Shown piece by piece: positions 7,607-19,616 of a DNA stretch of 39,875 nt. The DNA comes from Armatimonadota bacterium (lineage in GTDB: Bacteria; Armatimonadota; Armatimonadia; Armatimonadales; Armatimonadaceae). Position 1 is the stretch's first letter. Each line of letters starts with the position of its first letter. The notes beneath the pieces were generated by a model. It was not told the DNA's origin. It saw nothing but the letters and a program-made list of their open reading frames with translations, and ran no database searches. Location of the stretch: assembly GCA_026392155.1 (NCBI GenBank), contig JAPLCP010000053.1:1-39875 (forward strand), written 5' to 3'. Both the position numbers and the translations under genes were made by a program.

Positions 7607-8428
7607 TTACCGGATTCGATAGCAGGCCGTCTTCTCCAGCTGAACCCGCTCGAAGTTATCGTCTAGGTTCATCGTCGTCTCCGCGCCTCCGAGAAAGAAA
7701 ACTCCATCGGGCTTAAGAGCCTTGCGGACTTTTGCTAGGATAGCCTTTTTTGTCTCTTGATCGAAGTAGATCAGCACATTGCGCATGAACAAAATGTCTA
7801 CTGGAGGAATCAAGGGCCAGACCTGGATCAGATTGCACTCGCGAAAGTCCACCATCTGCCGGATGTCCTCTCGAATCTGCCAGTTGGCACCCGATTTCTC
7901 GAAATGCCGCAAGAGCATCGAGATCGGCAGCCCCCGGTTGACTTCGATCTGGCTGTAGATGCCTTCACGAGCATGAGTGAGCACTTCGGTGTTGATATCC
8001 GTGGCAATGATACGGATATTGTTTTTAGGTATCTGCGGGAAGCTCTCTCGCAGGAGTAGCGCAATGCTATAGGGCTCCTGCCCCGCCGATGCTGCAGCAC
8101 ACCAGATTGTCAGTTGGGGGTCACTCCCCCGTTTGGCGAGAAGCTCCGGGATGACCGTTTTTTTCAGGGCCTCAAAGGGATACATGTCCCGAAAGAATGA
8201 GGTCTCATTGGTGGTCATGGCCTCGATCACGGCTTGTGAGAGCTTCCCAGCGGGCTGTGTACGAAGCCGTGTCACCAGCTCCGCTAGAGACATACACCCG
8301 TTCTGACTGGCAACCGAGACAAGCCGTGATTGGACAAGATACTCTTTACCTGGCTCTAGAACAATCGCGGAGCGTTTGTAGACCAGCTCACAGATATAGT
8401 CGAAGTCGGCTTTGGCAATGGTACTCAT
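7607..8428 (-). CDS. cheR: CheR, chemotaxis MCP glutamate methyltransferase
   Basis: 273 aa. The N-terminal helical domain (1-80) contains TTNETSFFRD, the CheR signature. The SAM-binding domain has IWCAAASAGQEPYSIAL (motif I), IRIIATDINTEVL, and FMRNVLIYFD near the C-terminus. It methylates receptor glutamates using S-adenosylmethionine, opposing CheB. The start overlaps the cheB stop (ATGA at 8425-8428). It is the last gene of the chemotaxis operon and is followed by a strong hairpin. Confidence 0.97.
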   Translation of the reverse strand: MSTIAKADFDYICELVYKRSAIVLEPGKEYLVQSRLVSVASQNGCMSLAELVTRLRTQPAGKLSQAVIEAMTTNETSFFRDMYPFEALKKTVIPELLAKRGSDPQLTIWCAAASAGQEPYSIALLLRESFPQIPKNNIRIIATDINTEVLTHAREGIYSQIEVNRGLPISMLLRHFEKSGANWQIREDIRQMVDFRECNLIQVWPLIPPVDILFMRNVLIYFDQETKKAILAKVRKALKPDGVFFLGGAETTMNLDDNFERVQLEKTACYRIR

Positions 8429-9588
8429 CCTCGCAGACCTCCGTAGCTGCTACTCATCGTCGTTGTGCCAATGCGCCGAGCAGGGCGACCTGCCATCACG
8501 CGGCGGATGATCTCACCAGCGACTTCCTGTAGCGGAAGAACCCGGCTGGCAAGCCCCGCCTGAGCCACAAAGCCAGGCATTCCCCAGACCACACTGCTCG
8601 CCTCATCTTGCGCCACGATCTGCCCACCGGCATTGCTGACGGCTTCACAGCCACGTAGACCATCTTGCCCCATCCCCGTTAAGATTACGGAGAGGCAGCT
8701 GGCACCATAGTGCTGCACCACGGAGCGCAGCATCACATCAACGGCAGGGCGACAGGAGTTCTCCGGTGGCCCCATAAAGACGCATGTTTTCATCCGGCCT
8801 TCCTCGCGCTCCAGCCCTAGATGAAAGTCACCGGGAGCTAACCAGGCTGTTCCAGGCTCTAAAAACATCCCACTGGTCGCTTCGATGACTGTGATCGCAC
8901 ACCGGGAGTTGAGGCGCTCCGCCAGCAGTTTTGTGAACATCGGAGGCATGTGCTGAACAATCACAATCGGCACGGGAAAGTCGGCGGGGAGCTGTGCTAG
9001 GACAATATTCAGGGCATCTGGCCCCCCCGTAGACGTGCCAATCGCCAGAATCTCGACTCGCTCCGTCGGGTGTGGGAGCGTGCTACTTGCCGTCGGCAGC
9101 ACCAGCTTCGTCAGTGCCAGCGGAGCCACTTCGGCACTCACGCGAGGAGCTGAGCGAACGACTTGATCGCCGGCGATGCTACGCCGGGTAAAGAGCTTAA
9201 TCTTGGGGATCAGGGTCTCCCGAATAATCTGCATCACGGCGCTCACACTGCCCACATTGGCGGGCTTGGTAACATAGTCCGACGCGCCAAAGCTCAGGGC
9301 ATCCAGAGTCGCCGCCGCACCGCGCTGAGTGAGTGTGCTGAACATGATCACGGGGAGCAGTCTGTGGGTCTTACGAATCTCCTTGAGTGTCTCCAGACCA
9401 TCCATATCTGACATCTCGATATCGAGGATCACAATATCCGGGTTGAGCAGCGCTAGCTTCGCCAGAGCGATCTTGCCATTAGGAGCGGTTCCTACAATCT
9501 CAATATCGGGGTCTTCCGCAAGCGTGTCGGAGAGAATCCGGCGCACCACCACAGCATCGTCAGCCAATAGAACACGGACCTTAGGCAT
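8425..9588 (-). CDS. cheB: CheB, receptor methylesterase/deamidase with receiver domain
   Basis: 387 aa. The N-terminal receiver has the acidic pair Asp10/Asp11, phospho-acceptor Asp56 (VILDIEMSDMDG) and Lys108 (VTKP). A linker of about 40 residues follows. The esterase domain has the triad Ser186 (GTSTGGP), His213 (VQHMPP) and Asp309 (LTGMGQDG). Phosphorylation by CheA would activate removal of receptor methyl groups. Its ATG shares one base with the cheY1 stop (TGATG), and its stop overlaps cheR. Confidence 0.97.
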   Translation of the reverse strand: MPKVRVLLADDAVVVRRILSDTLAEDPDIEIVGTAPNGKIALAKLALLNPDIVILDIEMSDMDGLETLKEIRKTHRLLPVIMFSTLTQRGAAATLDALSFGASDYVTKPANVGSVSAVMQIIRETLIPKIKLFTRRSIAGDQVVRSAPRVSAEVAPLALTKLVLPTASSTLPHPTERVEILAIGTSTGGPDALNIVLAQLPADFPVPIVIVQHMPPMFTKLLAERLNSRCAITVIEATSGMFLEPGTAWLAPGDFHLGLEREEGRMKTCVFMGPPENSCRPAVDVMLRSVVQHYGASCLSVILTGMGQDGLRGCEAVSNAGGQIVAQDEASSVVWGMPGFVAQAGLASRVLPLQEVAGEIIRRVMAGRPARRIGTTTMSSSYGGLRG

Positions 9589-9959
9589 CAGACCAATTCC
9601 ATTCCGATGAGCCGGAGCTTCTCCACAATGATCTCTTTGGTGAAGGGTTTCATCACGTACTCATCCGCCCCAGCATCGAGCGCCTCAATCATCTTAGAGA
9701 TCTCATTCTCCGTGGTGACCATCATCAGGCGAAGCTCATCGTACTCGCGCATCGCCCGAACGGCCTTGACAAAGTCGTAGCCGTTCATCTGCGGCATGTT
9801 CCAGTCCACCAGAGCAATATCCAGTGGCGCTTCTTTCTTAAGTACCTCAAGTGCCATCTGACCATCTTCGGCTTCTGCAACCTCATAGCCCATGTCACGG
9901 AGCATTTTCCCTAAGATCGCTCGGATCGCTTTTGAATCATCAATAACTAGTGCACGCAT
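9588..9959 (-). CDS. cheY: CheY-type response regulator (cheY1)
   Basis: 123 aa, a single receiver domain: Asp7-Asp8 (VIDDSKAIR), phospho-site Asp52 (ALVDWNMPQMNG), Thr at MMVTTEN and the Lys of VMKPFT. The NMPxMNGYDF stretch is typical of chemotaxis CheY. AGAGAGG lies about 9 nt upstream of the ATG. It is the first gene of the cheY1-cheB-cheR block. A second CheY lies at 19158-19616; the two probably divide motor output and phosphate-sink roles, but which is which cannot be told. Confidence 0.95.
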   Translation of the reverse strand: MRALVIDDSKAIRAILGKMLRDMGYEVAEAEDGQMALEVLKKEAPLDIALVDWNMPQMNGYDFVKAVRAMREYDELRLMMVTTENEISKMIEALDAGADEYVMKPFTKEIIVEKLRLIGMELV

Positions 9960-9994
9960 CGTCTTAACCTCTCTCGTGTCTGTTTCTACTCAGG

Positions 9995-10187
9995 CTACTC
10001 TTCGCAAGCCGTGGGATCTTGCCAGAACTGCTATTCTCTATAGTTGTTCCATACTTGAACTGACTCATGAGGCTCTGCAGCGTATTTCCCTTGGGCAAGT
10101 GTGGGGAGAAACTCTTTATCCAGCACATCAAAGTAGCGCTATGCAGCACCGTCTGACCGATTCAAAAGTTCGTTTTTCCAGTCGTTA
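9995..10187 (-). pseudogene. Remnant of an MCP sensor domain
   Basis: Read on the minus strand, this region gives NDWKNELLNRSDGAA*RYFD and then VLDKEFLPTLAQG, which lines up with [22 protein letters not shown] of the adjacent MCP. At DNA level 10102-10151 matches 11895-11944 without gaps at roughly 70% by my count. Stop codons interrupt it and no signalling domain follows. It is the decayed sensor part of a third receptor between cheY1 and the MCP. The rest of the 388-bp gap (about 10190-10318) shows nothing I can name. Confidence 0.65.
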
Positions 10188-10318
10188 ACAGGAGAGCTTC
10201 CCTTGAACCGACTCGAACGAAAAAACTTTCATAAAGCACGCCTCTTACCCTTTGGCCTCCAAAGAGAGCCTGAACCATACTCGTAGAATTTACTGCGCCC
10301 TTCTTCGTCACTTACTTC

Positions 10319-10347
10319 GGAAAAAATGTGCCATAACTTTAATAGGC
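10319..10347 (-). terminator. Weak possible terminator after the MCP
   Basis: On the minus strand, just past the MCP stop, GCC(T)AT pairs with ATGGC across TAAAGTT, followed by ACATTTTTT. The stem is short with a bulge, so some read-through into cheY1 is likely. Confidence 0.35.
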
Positions 10348-12318
10348 TCAGGCTGCCAGTCGAAGAGGAACTGCTGGCTTCGTGGATGCCTGGGTCTCGT
10401 CTTGAAGAGTGCCTGCGAGCTCGCGCAGCCCTACCACCATCGCACTTAGCTCCCGTGCGGCTTGGCTCGCCTGGTGAATGCTCTGTGCCTGATTTTCCAG
10501 CGCCACAGAAACCTTTTGCGCACTGCCAGAGATACTGTGCATGGTTGCTTTTAGCTCCTGAGCTCCTGTAGATACCTTCTCCCCGCTGTGACGAAGCTCC
10601 TGGATCACGTCGGTCACTCGCTGCGACTGTCCCATCATGGTCTGTATCTCTTCCTCGCCCGCCGCGATGACATCCAGCATCCCGGAGACGGCCCCCTGAG
10701 TCTTGCCCACACTGGACTCCATCTGAATCGCCGCCGTGCTCACCAGCCCCGCCTCCGAGATAAGCTCATCGGTCGCCCCCAAGATCTCTCCCAGCGAGCG
10801 CTCCGCCTCGATTCCCAGAGACGCACCATGGGCGACTTCTTTACTGCTGCTCACCATCGCCTCCATGGTCTCCGTCACTCCTTGGCGCATCCCTGCAATC
10901 AGTCTGCTGATCTCGGTGGTGGCTTCGGTCACTTGAACCGCGAGCTTGCGCACTTCATCAGCCACGACGGAGAAGCCCAGCCCATGCTCACGCGCCCGTG
11001 CCGCCTCAATCGTGGCATTTAGGGCTAGTAAGTTGGTCTTGCGGGCAATGGTTGAGATCGTGGCGGTAATCCCCCCAATCTCTCCGCTCTTCCCCCCAAG
11101 CTCCTCCACTTTCTCCGAAAATGCCATCATCTGCTCTTGAATCCGGCGCATGCTGTTGATCGTCTCCGAGACCGTCGTGCCCCCGGTTCGCGCGACAGAA
11201 GCAGCACGGCTTGCGGAGGAGGCAAAGCGCTCGGCAGAGGCCGCCATTGCTTGGACGGCTTGCGCGGCGGCCTCCATTTCCTGTCCCACCTCTTGGGCCA
11301 TGGTCTGCTGACGCACACGGCCATCGCTGACCCGCTTCATCGCCGCGAACATTCCCTCTACTGCGGACATGGCCTCGCGGGCGCAACCTTCTTGCTGTGA
11401 GGTGCTGGCCGCAACCCGATCACTGAGGTCCGCCCCACGCGCCACCGCCTCAGAGACACTTCCCATTAAGCGGGTCACTGTGTTCATGGCATCCTGGGTA
11501 CCTGTCACAGCAGAGTCTAAGTAAATACCACTAGACGCGGCAGCTTCTGCATCCTGCTTAACCTGTGCGGCAACCTCGCTCAGACGAAGAAAAATATCGT
11601 GAAGCTCCGTGCGAGCACGCTCTAAGTCTTGGGTCTGGCACGTGACATCCTGGACAATTTCCCGGCTCACCCGCCAGACGAGCGTCCCCGTGGCGATGAG
11701 CATCCCTAGGCCTAGTGCCACAAGGGCGAGCCCCGCAAGCTGCACCATTTTTTGGGCAGCGGCTTCATCAGTCTGGTAGTGCTGGTTTGCCAGGTTAACC
11801 ACGTTATCTACGGCACTACGGTGCTCACTGTAGGCCGTTTTCAGGGACGTCGCGGCAAGCGTGTTCAGACGTGGCGTATCACCCCGCGAAACCGCGGGAA
11901 GATACTCACGATCCAGCACCTCAAAAAAATGCTGCGCGGCCCCGTGGGATTTCTCCAGCAGTGCCGTGCGCAAGCGGCTCCCCTCCGGGAGATCCTTCTG
12001 CCAAAAATCATGACGTGTATCGTAGTCGGTTCGGAGCTTTTTTAGGCTCTCTTGTAGCCTCTGCCGCTCCTCCGTGCTTGAAGCATCCTTGAGCTGAAGG
12101 GCTACCAGGTAGCTCTCAATGAGATACTCCGGCGGGGGGAGAACATCCGCAATCAGATCTTTTGACTGCACGATCTGGTTGTAGTAATGCCCCCCAATAC
12201 GAACATTGTGAATGGCCCACCAGGAGACTCCCCCAAAGAGAAGAAAGCTCCCTAAAAACGCTCCAACAAGCAAAAACAACTTGTTACGAACGGTTGTAAC
12301 AGAAACAAGCTTCATCAT
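10348..12318 (-). CDS. Methyl-accepting chemotaxis protein (transmembrane)
   Basis: 656 aa. TM1 is at about 14-36 and an outer four-helix-type sensor domain at about 37-190. TM2 is at about 195-218. A short linker without a clear HAMP follows, then the coiled signalling domain. The tip hairpin contains [19 protein letters not shown] and [20 protein letters not shown], close to the MCP consensus. It senses a periplasmic ligand and controls CheA through CheW. The ligand is unknown; aromatic and Pro residues ([11 protein letters not shown]) mark the first sensor helix. The start overlaps the upstream MCP stop (ATGA). A decayed paralogue of its sensor lies just downstream. Confidence 0.93.
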
Positions 12319-14765
12319 TTTTCCTTAAATGCTTCGTATGGAGCTATCTCACGACGATTTTTCGGAGAGTTCTCTGCCGTGCGGAATTGATTACGCACTC
12401 CGGTAGTCATGGTATCTTCCTCGTTGTTATGGAACCGGTGCGTCAGCTCCGTCAGGTCGGTGGCCATCTCGGCAAGCCGGCTGGCTGCAACCTGTGTCTG
12501 GCTTGCCCCCGTTGCGGTTGCCTGAGCTCCCTCAGCAACCCCGCTCATGTTTGAGGCGATCTCACTGGTTCCCCGTGCCGCTTCCTCAATTGTCCGGCTG
12601 ATCTCACACATCGTGACGGACTGCTCCTCGACCGCGCTGGCGATCGTGTTCTGAAAGCCGTGGATCTGGCGGATGATTTCCTCGATCTCTGTAATGGCCG
12701 CTACAGCCGCCACCGTGTCTTGCTGAATCGCTTCGATCTTACGACTGATGTCTTCGGTGGCTCCGGCAGTCTCTTTGGCAAGCTCTTTGACCTCATTGGC
12801 GACAACCGCAAAACCCTTGCCTGCCCCACCCGCTCGGGCCGCTTCGATAGCAGCGTTTAAGGCGAGAAGGTTGGTTTGCTCCGCGATAGACGTAATGGTC
12901 TTGAGTACCGCCCCAATCTCTTGGCTACTGGCTCCCAGCTTTGCCACGGTCTGGCTCACTTGATCCGCGACCGTCACGGCCTGGCTTGCTACCATGGCTG
13001 CATCGGCGGCATTGCGTGCCACTTCTCGAACCGCCACACCAGTCTCCTCGGCACCTGCAGCAACCATCGCGACATTATGGTGAACTTCCTCAGAGGCCCT
13101 GGCAACGACGGCGGACTGGACCGCGGTCTGCTCGGACGATGTCCCCATGTTCTGGCTAATGCACGCGAGCTCATCGGAGGCCATCAGCAGTGCATCAGCG
13201 CTCTGGCTCACAGCCTCAAGAGTCGCCGTAAGACCTGCCTCCGTCCGCCTGCGCCGCGTGATATCACTGGCTGAAAGAGAGACACTCTGTAGCTGGCCAT
13301 TCGCATTGAGGACAGGGTTATAGGTTACCTGAAGCCAGCGCTCCTTCTCACCTTTGATAATATACTTATGCTCCGTGACCATATAGCGCCCCGCGCTAAG
13401 CTCTTCCCAGAACTGGCGATACTCCTCAATGGAGTGTTGTTTCGTGCAGACCAAGGCTCGATGATGCCTGCCCATAAGCTCCGATGCCAAGTAGCCTGTC
13501 ATCGCCAAGAATTGATCGTTTGCCTTCGTGATGATGCCCCCAGACGTGAACTCAAGCACAAGCTGTGTCTCATTGATCTGCTCCAGCTTACGTAGGTTGT
13601 TCAGCTCCTCGACTTTGCGAGCCGTAATATCCATGGCAAACTTGACAACTTTGTAGGGCTTGCCCTGCGGATCCAGAATGGGGTTGTAGATGCCCTGTAT
13701 CCAGACAACTTTACCGTGCTTGTTCACCCGCTTGAACTCCCCTATCTGAGACTTTCCTTGGGCGAGATCCTGCCAGAACTGACGGTAGGCGCTACTATTT
13801 TGCTCCTCAGGTAGTACTAAAAGGCGGTGGTGCCTGCCCACAATTTCGTCGAGGCTATAGTCGAACCCCGCTAGAAAATTTTCATTGGCGGTCAGAATAT
13901 TGCCCGCAAGATCAAACTCAATGACACACTGGCCCTTATGGATGGCCTGAAGCTGACCGCGCGTGTCCGCATCTTTTTTCTCTTGTTTGGCGTGTTCTGC
14001 TTGGCGGCGATCCATAACACGGTTAAACCAGTGCGCGACCTCGCCAATCTCTCCCTGCTGTGCCTCATCCATCCGCTCTGAGACACTATCCCCTTGGGCC
14101 ATTGTCTTGAAGTACTTGACGAGCATCTGCAGTGGCTGGAGAACACTCTTCGCGAGGAGAAATAAGGCCCCAAAGGCAGCAAACAAGGCCATTCCTGTCA
14201 GCACATTTAGCTTCGTGCTAAGGCTGGACAAGGCGATGATGCCATTTTCTTTGGCTGCCTTGCCATCCACCTCAAGCGTCTCACTAACCTTCTCCAATGG
14301 AACCTCAAGCTCATCAAAAGACTTCTGGAAGGCGGGAAGCTGAGTACTGGCTGCCTGCTGATTCTCCAGCGATAGATCCCCAATCGCTCCCGCGGTCAGA
14401 ACATACTTCTCTAAAGGAGTCAGCACACCATTGATCCGCTCACGAGCCACCGCACTCAGAGGAAGCTTTTTATTCTCCTCAACCGCGGCTCGTAGTATGT
14501 CGGCATGCTCCGAGAGATCCTTACGCGCGGCTTTACGAGCATCTGTCTCTTTGGAGAGGAGCAACGAAAGTACATCGGAGCGCAAGGCATCGTGCATCAT
14601 ATCCACTTGCATGTGGTTTCGGATTCCCGCCGTCACCACCTGCCCGCTTGTCAGCTCATCGCGCACGGCCCCCATCAGCCGTGCTGCATAAAAGGCGATT
14701 CCAGCGGCGATTATCACGCCCGCGATACAGATCGCCTGAATTTTCTTTTTAATGCCCCAGTTCAC
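12315..14765 (-). CDS. Methyl-accepting chemotaxis protein with HAMP and two PAS domains
   Basis: 816 aa starting with GTG at 14765; GAGGA lies 7 nt upstream. TM1 is at about 9-29, a four-helix sensor at about 30-185, TM2 at about 187-208, and HAMP at about 210-262 ([18 protein letters not shown]). Two PAS repeats follow at about 280-395 and 400-515. They share GRHHR, YRQFW and a W(I/L)Q...YNP pattern, so they arose by duplication. The signalling domain has [18 protein letters not shown] and [22 protein letters not shown] pairs of this kind often hold heme or flavin, so the receptor may sense redox or oxygen as well as a periplasmic signal; the cofactor is not evident. Confidence 0.93.
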
Positions 14766-14799
14766 CGTAGTATCCTCATTTCTGTCTCAGCCGTTTTCG

Positions 14800-15234
14800 C
14801 TAGTATTTTAGTATCGTCGTGAGATGCCCAGTGCCCACGTGTGAAGGACGGTTTCCTTCGCCATCTTGCACGTGCCACTTGACTCCAAGCGCAGTATCCG
14901 CACTTCCGCTCTGCCTCGCTCCCCCGGAGCGCAGCTGCAATGCCCCCTCAGTCTCAGCGCGAAACTCCATGTTTGACGAGAATCCAAAGCGCAAGAGAGT
15001 CGGTGTGGAGCTCGTCCGAGCGCCTAGCCCACCCTCGCGGCTGCGCTCTGTCGAGATACCCGCCTCGATCTGAAAAACACCTTTGCCGACGGTCAAGCTC
15101 GACTCCACAAAGTCAGGGCGGTCAGTTGAGAGAGGCTCTTTTTTCGGTGTCTCAGCCTTCGGTTTTTGCGTCTGCGCAAAGCCAGGAACTGCGACCAGAC
15201 AAAGAATTAGTGTAATAAGTTGTGAGTTTTTCAT
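14800..15234 (-). CDS. Secreted beta-barrel-like protein, C-terminally truncated
   Basis: 144 aa from ATG 15234 (MKNSQLITLILCLVAVPGFA), with AGGA 7 nt upstream and a clear signal peptide cut near Ala20. LSTDRPDFVESSLTVGKGVF, FQIEAGISTE, STPTLLRFGFSSNMEFR and ADTALGVKW follow. This is the start of the 'transporter / phenol-degradation MetA' outer-membrane family (TDRPxFxxS...VxxGxFQLExG). Those proteins usually continue for another 100 or more residues. Here the frame closes soon after DGEGNRPS with VGTGHLTTILKY. It therefore looks like a shortened relic inserted between cheW and the MCP gene. The family assignment is from motif memory only. Confidence 0.6.
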   Translation of the reverse strand: MKNSQLITLILCLVAVPGFAQTQKPKAETPKKEPLSTDRPDFVESSLTVGKGVFQIEAGISTERSREGGLGARTSSTPTLLRFGFSSNMEFRAETEGALQLRSGGARQSGSADTALGVKWHVQDGEGNRPSHVGTGHLTTILKY

Positions 15235-15250
15235 ACTTATTCCTATTTTT

Positions 15251-15691
15251 CTAGGCAGCTGCCGCATAGCTACCCGTCACTTGAGCACTATTGAGCACGA
15301 GAAGCAAGCGATTGGGCAGCTTGTAGACCCCATCAATGCACTCGCGGACACGGCCTTGGAGTGTCTCGGGGGGGCGCTCATACTCCCCGTAGGGCATCTC
15401 CAAGACATCCCCGATCTCGTCCACCAGCAGGCTCACCAGCCCGTCTTCGTTTCTGAGAATAATATTCATGGCGGGCTTTCCCTCAGGCCGCTCGTCGAGG
15501 AGCAGCAGTTTTCGCAGGTCTATTGCGGTGACGATCTGTCCCCGTAGATTGATCAGCCCCACGATAGTCTCCGAAGCCAGCGGCACTTTCGTCATCGGCT
15601 GAGGACGAAGAACCTCTTGCACCTGAATCAGTGTCACCCCGAAGAGATACCCCCCCAGAGAGAAGGTGCAGAACCTGTGTGGCGTTTCCAT
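15251..15691 (-). CDS. cheW: CheW, receptor-kinase coupling protein
   Basis: 146 aa, one CheW/SH3-like domain: CTFSLGGYLFGVTLIQVQEV at the start, GLINLRGQIVTAIDLRKLL at about 45-63, and VDEIGDVLEMP at about 90-100. A GAGG 6 nt before the ATG supports the start. The first 209 bp overlap the 3' end of cheA in another frame. CheW bridges the MCPs and CheA at the cytoplasmic tips of receptor arrays. Confidence 0.95.
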   Translation of the reverse strand: METPHRFCTFSLGGYLFGVTLIQVQEVLRPQPMTKVPLASETIVGLINLRGQIVTAIDLRKLLLLDERPEGKPAMNIILRNEDGLVSLLVDEIGDVLEMPYGEYERPPETLQGRVRECIDGVYKLPNRLLLVLNSAQVTGSYAAAA

Positions 15692-18590
15692 AGTTTTCCT
15701 CTTGCAGCACTTCTAGGAGCGCTGGTACATCTAAAATCTGTGTGACCCGTCCCTGAATCACCATCGTCCCCAGCACGGGGACATCAGGAGCTTGGCCTTC
15801 AAGATTGACGGCTTCCTCGACAATATCAACGATACTATCCACCACCATCCCCACACTCGTGGCCTCTTCCCCAATCACAATAACTTGCAGTGGCTCGTGA
15901 CGAAGCTCAGAAGAGAGGCTCTCCGCACCGGGCACGTAGTTCATCAGGTGCAACAGCGGCATGATCCGCCCTCGGTACTGCACCACCGTGTGCCGCCCCA
16001 CTTCCTCCACCAAGGTGCGGGGGAACTCCTCGAGACGAGCCACGGCAGAGAGCGGGATCGCCATGCGCCCGTTTCGCCCGATCTGGAAGAGCAGTAGTGT
16101 CTGGATACGCTCACTCAGAGACGTCTCGGGGGCATCCACAATGCCACGGCTTCGGTGGGCATCGGCAACGAGGTTGGCACATCCCGCTAGGGCCGCCACA
16201 TCCAGAATCAGCGCCACACGCCCATCTCCCATGATCGTGGCACCGGCAAAGAGCTGTGCACTCTTCAGGTGCTTGCTCAGCGGCTTGACCACGATCTCCT
16301 CGGAGTCGGTGATGCTGTCTACGACGAGGCCAAACTGCTGGTCATTGGCCTGCAAAACGACGATATTGAGCACCCGGTCTTCGTCGGGCTCTTTGCGCTG
16401 CTTCAGCTCCTGGTCGAGAAAGAGCAGTGGTAGGAGCTTGCCCCGGAGCCGGTAGACTGGGATGCCCTGAATGCGCTCAATTCCCGCATGCGCCGAGGGG
16501 AGCCGAACTACCTCTAGGAGGCTCACCTGGGGGATGGCATAGCGCTCCTCTCCTGAGCAGACCATCAGCGCGGGGACAATCGCTAGGGTGAGAGGAATCT
16601 TGACCTTAATCGTCGTTCCCTTCTTCTTCTGGCTCTGGATATCAATCGTCCCCCCGATTTTCGCGATATTGGTCTTGACCACATCCATTCCCACACCGCG
16701 CCCCGAGACATTGGTCACCGCCGCCGCCGTGGAGAGGCCAGGGAGGAAGATGAGCTGGAGGGCCTCCCAGTCGCTCATACGAGCCGCTTGATCCGAGGTG
16801 ATAAAACCACGCTCTAGTGCTTTGGCTTTGATTCGCCCCGTGTCAATCCCACCACCATCGTCCCGGATCTCGATATTGACCTGGCCGCCTTCGTGGTAGG
16901 CCCGCAGTAGCAACAGTCCCTCAGCAGACTTCCCTGAAGCGACACGCACATCGGGCTGCTCGATGCCATGATCTACGGAGTTGCGGATTAAGTGGGTCAG
17001 GGGATCTTTAATGGCCTCAATCAGAGTCTTGTCTAAGTCCGTCTCGTGGCCTTCCATCTCAAGGCGCACTTGCTTTCCACACGAAAGAGCCAGGTCACGC
17101 ACCACGCGGGGAAACTTATTCCAGACATTGCCAATCGGCTGCATCCGGGTCTTCATTACCCCTTCTTGTAGCTCCGAGGTGATCAGGTTCAGCCGCTGTG
17201 CTGTTGTGATCATCGCAGGATCGGGCTGACTGCCATGGGCTTGGATCAGCTGGACGATCTGGTTTCGGGTAAGCACCAGCTCTCCGACAAGGTTCATCAG
17301 GCTGTCTAGTAAGGCCACATCCACTCGGATACTGGCATCCCCAATAGGGCCTTGCGCCCCGCTAGAGGTTCCCCCAAATGCCTGGATAGCTCGCTCAACA
17401 ATGTCTTTGGTGACGAGCCCCATGGAGGCAAGAATATCCCCCAAGCGCCGCTGGTCGCCTGCTTCTTGCTCACGAAGCGCCCTTGTGAGATCCCCCATCT
17501 CAATGTAGCCCTGGTTGATCAGTACATCCCCTAGGCGACCATGGATCGGGGTAAAGCTCTCAGCAGAGACCGCAGGTGCGAGTACTGGCGGGATGCTTTC
17601 CGCAACCAGAGCAGGTGTAGATGTCGGTTTAGGTACGGCGGTATGCTCGCCGTCGGGCTGCTCTTGAAGCTGATGCAGTGTCTCGGTCAGAGCCGTGTAG
17701 TCTGCCATGCCTTCATTGCCCGTGGCCTCAATCGTCCCTAGAATCTGGCGGATCGCATCTACCATCGCGAGCAAGGCATGGGTGCAAGGCGGTGTCAGGT
17801 TGAGCTCCCCAGTACGGAGCATGCTCAGGAGATTTTCGCCCGCGTGGCTCAGCGACTCTAGGCGAGAGAAGCCCAGAAAGCCACAGGTGCCTTTAATGGT
17901 GTGGATCGTGCGGAAGATACTGGAGATCGTCTCCCGGTCGTTGGGATCTTTCTCTAGCGCAAGCAGATCCAAGTCGAGCCGGTCCAGGTTCTCGTAGCTC
18001 TCCGCCAGAAAGTCCTGAACAATCCCATCCCCCAGAAAGTCCTGAACAATCCCATCCTCGGCCATCAGCGATGATGTAGGCATCGCCACGGCAGGCTCAG
18101 GCTTCGCGACAGGCTCTTTGGTCGTTACCAAGCGCAGACTCACGCTCTCGATCTCAGCTTCGGGAGCGACACTCAGGGTTCGTTGTGTCCCACCGGGCCA
18201 GCTGGCCTCGGGCACTTCGTTGGCCCAAGGTAGGTCTCCAGGCGTGCGTCCCAGCGCCACCCAGACTGTCATCCCGGCGATATTGAGCGGCTCAATACTG
18301 GCGTACTTTCCGGAGCGGAAGTAGCGCTCCAGAGCCCCAACCGCGCGGCGTGCGGCTTGCACGGCAGCCGGGGGATTGCCCACACTCTCCATGTAGACTT
18401 CCTGCAAGATCTCCAAACAAAGCATCAGAAGCTCGGCGGGGCGGGGCAGTTCTTCGGGAAGGCTTGAGAGAATCTCTTCGAGGCCCACCCCAATCGCCGC
18501 CAGCTCATCGTTGTCACCAATCGAAAAGCTTGCCAAGCGCATCTCCAGGCTACGGAGTGTCTTAGGGGTTGTTTCGTCTATCGTCCACAT
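15483..18590 (-). CDS. cheA: CheA sensor kinase with MshEN-like insert and two CheW-like domains
   Basis: 1035 aa from ATG 18590; an in-frame TTG at 18599 sits directly on the GGAG and is unlikely. The order is as follows. An uncharacterised helical N-terminus runs to about 110. HPt is at about 190-305 with the phospho-His in FRTIHTIKGTCGFLGF (His230). A double RLGxxLxxxG motif at about 350-406 follows. The dimerisation helices are at about 425-490. The GHKL ATPase has HLIRNSVDHGIE, IRDDGGGID and GLSTAAAVTNVSGRGVGMDV. CheW-like domain 1 is at about 670-805 and domain 2 at about 828-965. A 67-residue Ser/Gly/Asp/Arg-rich tail overprints cheW. There is no receiver and no ordinary P2 domain. It autophosphorylates under MCP/CheW control and passes phosphate to CheY and CheB. 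A 27-bp tandem duplication sits just ahead of HPt. Confidence 0.95.
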   Translation of the reverse strand: MWTIDETTPKTLRSLEMRLASFSIGDNDELAAIGVGLEEILSSLPEELPRPAELLMLCLEILQEVYMESVGNPPAAVQAARRAVGALERYFRSGKYASIEPLNIAGMTVWVALGRTPGDLPWANEVPEASWPGGTQRTLSVAPEAEIESVSLRLVTTKEPVAKPEPAVAMPTSSLMAEDGIVQDFLGDGIVQDFLAESYENLDRLDLDLLALEKDPNDRETISSIFRTIHTIKGTCGFLGFSRLESLSHAGENLLSMLRTGELNLTPPCTHALLAMVDAIRQILGTIEATGNEGMADYTALTETLHQLQEQPDGEHTAVPKPTSTPALVAESIPPVLAPAVSAESFTPIHGRLGDVLINQGYIEMGDLTRALREQEAGDQRRLGDILASMGLVTKDIVERAIQAFGGTSSGAQGPIGDASIRVDVALLDSLMNLVGELVLTRNQIVQLIQAHGSQPDPAMITTAQRLNLITSELQEGVMKTRMQPIGNVWNKFPRVVRDLALSCGKQVRLEMEGHETDLDKTLIEAIKDPLTHLIRNSVDHGIEQPDVRVASGKSAEGLLLLRAYHEGGQVNIEIRDDGGGIDTGRIKAKALERGFITSDQAARMSDWEALQLIFLPGLSTAAAVTNVSGRGVGMDVVKTNIAKIGGTIDIQSQKKKGTTIKVKIPLTLAIVPALMVCSGEERYAIPQVSLLEVVRLPSAHAGIERIQGIPVYRLRGKLLPLLFLDQELKQRKEPDEDRVLNIVVLQANDQQFGLVVDSITDSEEIVVKPLSKHLKSAQLFAGATIMGDGRVALILDVAALAGCANLVADAHRSRGIVDAPETSLSERIQTLLLFQIGRNGRMAIPLSAVARLEEFPRTLVEEVGRHTVVQYRGRIMPLLHLMNYVPGAESLSSELRHEPLQVIVIGEEATSVGMVVDSIVDIVEEAVNLEGQAPDVPVLGTMVIQGRVTQILDVPALLEVLQEENYGNATQVLHLLSGGVSLRGDTDSGARGSSSSADDESAAGFGDYRGADQSTGTDRHRNRPAKTAAPRRAA
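17373..17549 (-). other. MshEN-like double motif encoded within cheA
   Basis: About 58 residues containing GRLGDVLINQGYIEMGDLTR and then RRLGDILASMGLVTKDIVER. The spacing fits RLGxxLxxxGx6LxxxLxxQx6LGxxLxxxGx6Lx3L, the N-terminal c-di-GMP-binding pattern of MshE/PilB/GspE-type ATPases. It occupies the place of the P2 domain between HPt and the dimerisation helices. Confidence 0.65.
18005..18058. repeat. 27-bp in-frame tandem duplication in cheA
   Basis: Two adjacent 27-bp units (18005-18031 and 18032-18058) differ at one base. They encode DGIVQDFLG and DGIVQDFLA immediately before the HPt helices. The near identity suggests a recent slip or duplication. Confidence 0.85.
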
Positions 18591-19120
18591 GCAGGGCAAC
18601 TCTCCGGGTCGTGGTGTGATGGTGTCACTTGCCCGGTAACGATCTCAACCCAAAACTGACTATGAGAGAGATCGTAGACGGCGCAGCTAGAGAGAGTGTT
18701 CTGGGCCACGACGCGCTCGATATCATGGCCACGGAAGACTGTTGGTAGTGACATCGCCACGTCAAATCCCACGGTCGCCATCCGCGTGATGATATTCCCG
18801 GCGATAATATTGACCATTTCCCCAATTGCATCGCCCATATCTGCGCTATCGTAGTCAATATTGAAGCCTGCCATTGCCATCGAAAGCTCTGAAGCGGACT
18901 CACGTGAGCAGCAGATCATGACCGAGAAGTTTTGATTTCCCACAAACGATATCATCCCGCAGATACTGTCACAGAGCTTGTCAATCTCGTCAATAGGCTT
19001 TGGAATAAGCTCTTTCCCGACAAATATCGCAATGATTTGTGTGAAAGCTTCTTGTACCGCCTTGACCAAGGTGGGATCAATTATACTCGGCACCGAAGCC
19101 GCACTGTGGGAGTTGATCAT
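18578..19120 (-). CDS. cheX: CheX-like CheY-P phosphatase
   Basis: 180 aa. The core fits the CheC/CheX/FliY family. SICGMISFVGNQNFSVMICCS gives the first strands, and DMGDAIGEMVNIIAGNI at about 94-110 carries the catalytic Glu101 and Asn104 (ExxN) that act on phospho-CheY. A single ExxN motif is present, as in CheX; CheC and FliY have two. The last residues HHDPESCPACGR contain a CxxC that is not part of the usual family. Its end overlaps the cheA start by 13 nt, and it follows cheY2 by 37 nt. It resets signalling in systems without CheZ. Confidence 0.85.
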   Translation of the reverse strand: MINSHSAASVPSIIDPTLVKAVQEAFTQIIAIFVGKELIPKPIDEIDKLCDSICGMISFVGNQNFSVMICCSRESASELSMAMAGFNIDYDSADMGDAIGEMVNIIAGNIITRMATVGFDVAMSLPTVFRGHDIERVVAQNTLSSCAVYDLSHSQFWVEIVTGQVTPSHHDPESCPACGR

Positions 19121-19157
19121 GGGATTTTAACCTTGCCAGTCAACACTCTGAGTGCCT

Positions 19158-19616
19158 TTATGAGGACTTGCTCCCCATTAGCTTACTGAAGAAACCACCT
19201 GTCTTTGCTCCCACCTGAGGAGCACGTTTTGCGCTAATTCGCTCAAGTAGTGGCTGAACCTGTCGCACAAGATCATCGTGGGTGAAGGGTTTTGTTACAT
19301 ACGCATCAGCCCCCGCTCGATCCAGAGCATCCTGAAACTTGCCAATCGCATTCTCACTAGTCACCATAATGACGGGGATATGGTAGCCCTTCTCTTTGGC
19401 GCGCAGCTTTGCCACAAACTCAACCCCAGTCATCTTGGGCATGTTCCAGTCCACAAAAGCAATGTCAATGCTCTGAAAGGAAATGGTCTCCAAGGCATCC
19501 ATGCCATCTTCGGCTTCGGAAAACTGGAACTCCGCCAGCCCTGACTTGGTGAGCGCTTGCATTATCATACTGCGCATTACCCGAGAATCATCTACCACTA
19601 AAGTATTGAGTTTCAT
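19158..19616 (-). CDS. cheY: CheY-type response regulator with short C-terminal tail (cheY2)
   Basis: 152 aa. The receiver (1-122) has Asp9-Asp10 (LVVDDSRVMR), phospho-site Asp56 (AFVDWNMPKMTG), MVTSEN and VTKPFTHDDL. A basic tail of about 28 residues ending in GGFFSKLMGSKSS extends beyond a normal CheY. AGGA lies 8 nt before the ATG. It is the first gene of the operon and is divergent from the thioesterase at 19721; the 104-bp gap must hold both promoters. The tail might tether it to a partner, but this is only a guess. Confidence 0.93.
   Translation of the reverse strand: MKLNTLVVDDSRVMRSMIMQALTKSGLAEFQFSEAEDGMDALETISFQSIDIAFVDWNMPKMTGVEFVAKLRAKEKGYHIPVIMVTSENAIGKFQDALDRAGADAYVTKPFTHDDLVRQVQPLLERISAKRAPQVGAKTGGFFSKLMGSKSS

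Follow-up and report, generated by a model that had tools for sequence, protein, structure and literature searches.

An MshEN_N-type module beside the dimerization domain of a CheA from an Armatimonadota bacterium, a candidate site of c-di-GMP input to the chemotaxis kinase

Cle proteins are among the c-di-GMP inputs to chemotaxis, and to our knowledge the known routes from this messenger to chemotaxis use separate adaptor proteins. MapZ acts on chemoreceptor methylation (PMC6370697); it and the other known inputs are separate proteins at receptor methylation or the motor, whereas the CheA described here carries a candidate receptor within the kinase. The domain type in question is MshEN, with the consensus RLGxx(L/V/I)(L/V/I)xxG(L/V/I)(L/V/I)xxxxLxxxLxxQ occurring twice around a 5-residue spacer; MshEN_N alone binds c-di-GMP with a KD of 0.35 uM, and in MshE the two Gln hydrogen-bond the ribose and phosphate of c-di-GMP (PMC5013675). 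Wang et al. 2016 included CheA in their list of MshEN-associated proteins (PMC5013675), where the same kind of fusion appears as a single item (Suppl. Table 4). An MshEN-CheA fusion is not categorically new, being in the 2016 list, nor is a CheA without P2, such CheAs being the majority: about 52% of CheAs had no P2 in a 2023 survey (PMC10782961). The main text of that survey contains no mention of c-di-GMP and its auxiliary-domain section none of MshEN (PMC10782961), and the papers examined among those containing both MshEN and CheA gave no biochemical test of, or binding data for, a CheA module; since 2016 the fusion has apparently been known but neglected, and never tested.

The window, which is the whole stretch of 39,875 nucleotides that was analyzed, encodes CheA on its minus strand (15483..18599) as an open reading frame of 1038 amino acids with a TTG start and an in-frame ATG at codon 4. 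One copy of cheA was found by a search of the genome, and a scan of the genome contigs with the full CheA as the query gave one locus only. Pfam detected the full domain set of HPt, H-kinase_dim, HATPase_c and CheW. The HPt domain (P1; amino acids 193-285, 17745..18023; PF01627, E=6.5e-17) contains the phosphorylation box HTIKG and is followed by a stretch made up of the HPt end and a Pro/Ala-rich linker (amino acids 286-354, 17538..17744), by the module that is the subject of this report (amino acids 355-408, 17376..17537), and by a short linker that was modeled with low confidence by AF2 (amino acids 409-422, 17334..17375). The remainder comprises the P3 dimerization domain (amino acids 423-484, 17148..17333; PF02895), the P4 ATP-binding kinase domain (amino acids 532-671, 16587..17006; PF02518), a first CheW-like domain (P5; amino acids 677-804, 16188..16571; PF01584 in two stretches) and a second CheW-like domain. 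The module is thus tethered to P1 by the Pro/Ala-rich linker and to P3 by about 14 residues. The long region that precedes HPt (amino acids 1-192, 18024-18599) has no Pfam match above cut-off, and a long extension before HPt is also present in several other module-bearing CheAs, for example at loci L020 and L030. The CheA frame overlaps cheW, which is in another frame, by about 208 bp (15483-15691); an ortholog (L072) stops near the corresponding point, and so the last ~70 residues of CheA may be an artifact of a lost or missed stop codon.

The module consists of repeat I (amino acids 355-378, 17466..17537; RLGDVLINQGYIEMGDLTRALREQ; motif scoring and NF053729), the 6-residue spacer EAGDQR (amino acids 379-384, 17448..17465) and repeat II (amino acids 385-408, 17376..17447; RLGDILASMGLVTKDIVERAIQAF; motif scoring), all on the minus strand. 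Repeat I meets the MshEN consensus at all positions except Tyr at position 11, which a relaxed form of the motif permits (PMC5013675). Repeat II fits at R1, L2, G3, L6, G10, L11 and V12, and deviates at Ala7, Val17, Ile21 and Phe24, the last of which replaces Gln, such that the motif is not matched. When the segment was shuffled, none of 2000 shuffles attained the observed motif score (best 18.2 versus 23.2). The sequence-only reading had placed two tandem RLGxxLxxxGx6LxxxL blocks between HPt and the dimerization helices, within 17373-17549, joined by a Q-containing linker; the blocks are there, at 17537-17376, and Gln is indeed present both at the end of repeat I (Q378) and in the spacer, while the pattern itself is exact in block I only, the last two Leu of block II being Val and Ile. 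In common with MshEN_N of Vibrio cholerae MshE (5htl), the window module has two 24-residue repeats that are predicted to form a four-helix bundle, RLG and Gly10 in each repeat, and a terminal Gln in repeat I; it differs in its location within CheA instead of at an ATPase N-terminus, in having no MshEN_C, in its spacer of 6 rather than 5 residues, and in having Val, Ile and Phe in repeat II where MshE has Leu, Leu and Gln. A longer spacer is found in GSPII-C of PilF, a known binder.

The assignment to MshEN_N rests on profile matches, PDB homology and predicted fold. The NCBIfam profile NF053729 ("cyclic di-GMP-binding domain-containing protein, MshE-related"), built on a 53-residue motif, matches amino acids 355-406 of CheA with 45.0 bits (E=6.9e-12), the curated cut-off being 38. 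In a scan of the whole genome, this profile was passed only by the window CheA (48.8 bits) and two ATPase-sized open reading frames (834 and 621 amino acids). The Pfam profile PF05157 (MshEN/T2SSE_N) matched neither the CheA protein, nor the segment, nor any of 21 CheA modules, for which the segment and the 21 modules had only sub-threshold matches to other families (DUF4388 and others). In the ATPases of the same genome, the PF05157 match begins directly after the 53-residue NF053729 motif, which implies that PF05157 models the next subdomain, one without a counterpart in CheA. The profile search that had been proposed as a check, against MshEN (T2SSE_N), therefore fails with PF05157 and succeeds with NF053729. 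Among all PDB sequences, phmmer with the segment retrieved chains of MshE, PilB and PilF only, up to E=1; the best single-sequence match was GSPII-C of Thermus thermophilus PilF (in 6f8l). A profile of the 21 CheA modules matched PDB chains of these same proteins with E-values spanning 3e-28 to 4e-7, including 6f8l (3.3e-28) and 5htl (1.2e-9).

A single-sequence AF2 model had a pLDDT of 59 and weak Foldseek matches, the top one being PilF GSPII-A. Addition of the L072 ortholog to the input raised the mean pLDDT to 74, and this template-free prediction from the two sequences consists of four helices, with pLDDT about 84-89 across most of the bundle, together with a linker of low confidence and the hairpin of P3. 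Its best Foldseek match, at a probability of 1.00 and E 0.14, is c-di-GMP-bound MshE (5htl_A), on which it superposes at 0.8 A over 53 columns with 34% identity, so that structure prediction, the other check proposed, supports the earlier assignment; the next match is c-di-GMP-bound PilF GSPII-B (8pe0), and the remaining high-probability matches are CheA structures aligned on P3. The Foldseek E-values fall short of significance (best 0.08), as is expected of such a short helical query, and hence support the MshEN fold without proving it. A chance resemblance or generic helical repeat could be proposed from the absence of a Pfam match, and is refuted by the agreement of profile, PDB homology, fold and shuffles, to the point that we give it virtually no weight. 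The segment is a true MshEN_N-type module with an established fold. With repeat II failing the motif, including the Gln, the window module is classed as an MshEN_N homolog and as a putative, rather than demonstrated, c-di-GMP receptor.

In its core, the window CheA resembles the P1-P3-P4-P5 CheAs that have no P2, of which the 2023 survey describes the P2-less span as unstructured (PMC10782961), in contrast to the folded module predicted here. No P2 was detected by the Pfam search of the protein, and the 69 residues of HPt end and linker that separate HPt from the module are too short for P2, in agreement with the sequence-only reading that P2 is not recognizable; a home-made P2 profile built from relatives was likewise negative for the window CheA, which is weak evidence because this profile missed other types of P2. 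The module might then be a site of protein docking that fills the role of P2 or binds some other protein, for example CheY, CheX or one of the PilZ type, whether or not nucleotide is present. The undetected P2 would suit such a role, as would the complex of a PilB N-terminal domain with a PilZ protein in the PDB, which was a lower-ranked Foldseek match of the first model. More than half of all CheAs, however, do without P2 (PMC10782961), and the CheAs of L056, L057 and L107-L115 possess the module together with a P2-like domain, as judged by eye, which makes a docking function decidedly improbable. The coexistence of the two domains also means that the module is a P3-proximal insert and not a substitute for P2; the idea that it stands "in place of P2" is true of the window CheA and does not extend to these other CheAs. 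In L056, L057 and L107-L115 the spacer between the repeats is 0-1 residue, which may not permit the binding geometry of MshE.

The residues of the putative ligand site were compared among 33 distinct CheA modules. Gly3 is retained in 33 of 33 first repeats and 32 of 33 second repeats, and Gln24 in 27 and 31 of 33, respectively, by a scoring in which repeat II of L057 was mis-anchored by the script and that of L054 was truncated; Phe in place of the repeat-II Gln occurs in the window module only. In an alignment of 21 sequences, no polar residues other than the two Gln reach a conservation of 90% or above, and, judged from the sequences, their conservation is what ligand binding would be expected to leave. 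Loss of the Arg, Leu and Gly positions in close homologs had been named beforehand as an outcome that would refute the reading, and it is seen in part: in the closest module-bearing orthologs fetched, position 1 is Asn or Ser in repeat I and His in repeat II, not Arg, whereas neither repeat of the window module has lost its Arg or Gly. A consensus-like CheA module is that of L042, KLGDLLVQAGLVTKGAVDSALQRQ-STGNL-KLGEQLVKDGDAKPKDVAIALRAQ.

The consequences of such substitutions can be gauged from T. thermophilus PilF. In GSPII-B, changing the repeat-II Gln to Glu weakened binding 77-fold and left a KD of 460 nM, and changing both Gln to Glu abolished it (PMC11731258). In a restored fragment of GSPII-A, binding was weakened about 2.4-fold by Ile at the two Leu positions and about tenfold more by Gly3 to Ala in repeat II, and was abolished by Arg to Ser in repeat II (PMC12002112). 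GSPII-C binds c-di-GMP (PMC12002112) with a repeat II that has Val17, as in the window module, and that moreover begins with Pro (PMC11731258), demonstrating that some deviations are tolerated; unlike the window module, GSPII-C keeps the repeat-II Gln and belongs to a pilus ATPase. GSPII-A (9g1w) has the same fold as the window module, and likewise has Ile21 and lacks the Gln in repeat II.

The window module could accordingly be a degenerate MshEN that has kept its fold and lost c-di-GMP binding, and that now separates P1 from P3 as a folded spacer. GSPII-A and Xanthomonas XpsE are known non-binders that would be precedents (PMC12002112, PMC5013675), and the replacement of the repeat-II Gln by Phe in the window alone, as well as the many close CheAs in which a low-complexity linker is found instead of the module, would follow from this explanation. 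It is at odds with the presence of RLG in both repeats, with the nearly perfect repeat I, with the sub-micromolar KD that single-Gln variants of GSPII-B retain (PMC11731258), and with the family-wide conservation of pocket residues, which a pure spacer has no need of; we consider it unlikely. A preference for 3',3'-cGAMP or some other cyclic dinucleotide over c-di-GMP is a further alternative, and very improbable: MshEN binds cGAMP weakly (KD 330 uM; PMC5013675), and an asymmetric site with one half degraded could in principle favor a hybrid ligand, but Gly3, which reads guanine via its backbone, is present in both repeats. Binding of c-di-GMP by the window module is plausible from its sequence, at slightly better than even odds, and is probably weakened.

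The reading that we prefer is that the module binds c-di-GMP and thereby tunes the activity of CheA to the cellular c-di-GMP level, to which we assign a probability of roughly 0.5. One molecule of c-di-GMP would be bound, with a normal grip by repeat I and a weaker one by repeat II. A destabilized bundle in an engineered PilF fragment folds in response to c-di-GMP (PMC12002112); in CheA, stabilization of the four-helix bundle by c-di-GMP may alter either how readily P1 gets to P4 or how the P3 helices are arranged in the dimer. For this mechanism to hold, the window copy would need to bind c-di-GMP at its physiological levels, and the kinase output would need to change upon binding. If it is correct, the asymmetric site, with one full and one weakened half, would shift the threshold of the window CheA to higher c-di-GMP.

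The insert recurs in other CheAs, as a survey of related proteins, suggested at the outset, has confirmed. In the group of the same phylum (291 genomes searched), 14 genomes, spread over 8 family codes, had CheA matches that run end to end through the module and P3. In the phylum of L072 ("Acidobacteria bacterium isolate gp1"), direct reading of CheAs from a sample of 396 genomes identified the module in 22 of them, including that of L072, which is 55% identical to the window CheA over 788 aligned positions and has the same architecture. The close relatives of the window CheA with the module are L077, L079 (same gene as L072) and L086, in which the 6-residue spacers are of the form xxGD(P/Q)R. 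Among orthologs, the module is a conserved island flanked by unconserved linkers. In the clade of the window CheA, 25 of 29 members of the tree lack the module, which is therefore dispensable, and in many close CheAs low-complexity linkers stand where it would be. A quick tree of 90 CheA cores, which is blind to gain versus loss, requires at least nine changes of the module trait, at least five of them forced by well-supported branches, and places the module in three clades; as the loci were chosen partly for carrying the module, these counts are not frequencies. These observations are compatible with a distinct, recurrent CheA architecture, present in at least three clades and for which P2 is optional, in which c-di-GMP would gate the kinase through an MshEN_N module beside P3, the site of the window copy being asymmetric; this broader proposal is tentative, and we hold it at somewhat less than even odds. 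Two closely similar MshEN-bearing CheAs, L116 and L117, are about 10 kb apart in genome G388, apparently as a result of a recent local duplication.

Such a fusion may directly link two major bacterial signaling systems: if the module is a receptor, the chemotaxis kinase would have its own activity set by the messenger of the swim-to-stick decision. Being small, structurally well understood and present in dozens of CheAs, the module is amenable to standard assays. In some lineages, the "unstructured" span of P2-less CheAs also becomes a candidate sensory domain, one that is invisible to Pfam.

On the minus strand of the window, the order of transcription is a CheY-like response regulator (19158..19616; PF00072), a CheX-type CheY-P phosphatase (18578..19120; PF13690, with a score under the cut-off of profile NF041094) directly upstream of cheA, CheA, CheW (15251..15691; PF01584), two MCPs, a second CheY-like protein, CheB and CheR. 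A search of 11 genomes of the same genus or family gave no CheA match that spans the kinase core, and the identity of the CheA core is at most about 49% within its own phylum and 60-68% in the phylum of L072. From these comparisons, the che genes (7607-19616) look laterally acquired or differently retained. Contamination as the origin of this contig was considered and rejected, given the fairly even GC content along the window and a flanking uroporphyrinogen decarboxylase-like gene that is 83% identical to that of a genome of the same genus. The genome also has 19 GGDEF matches, a FliG and one PilZ match; the latter, the sole PilZ match of the genome, shares contig G000:C84 with FliG, and c-di-GMP may thus have a second input, at the flagellum.
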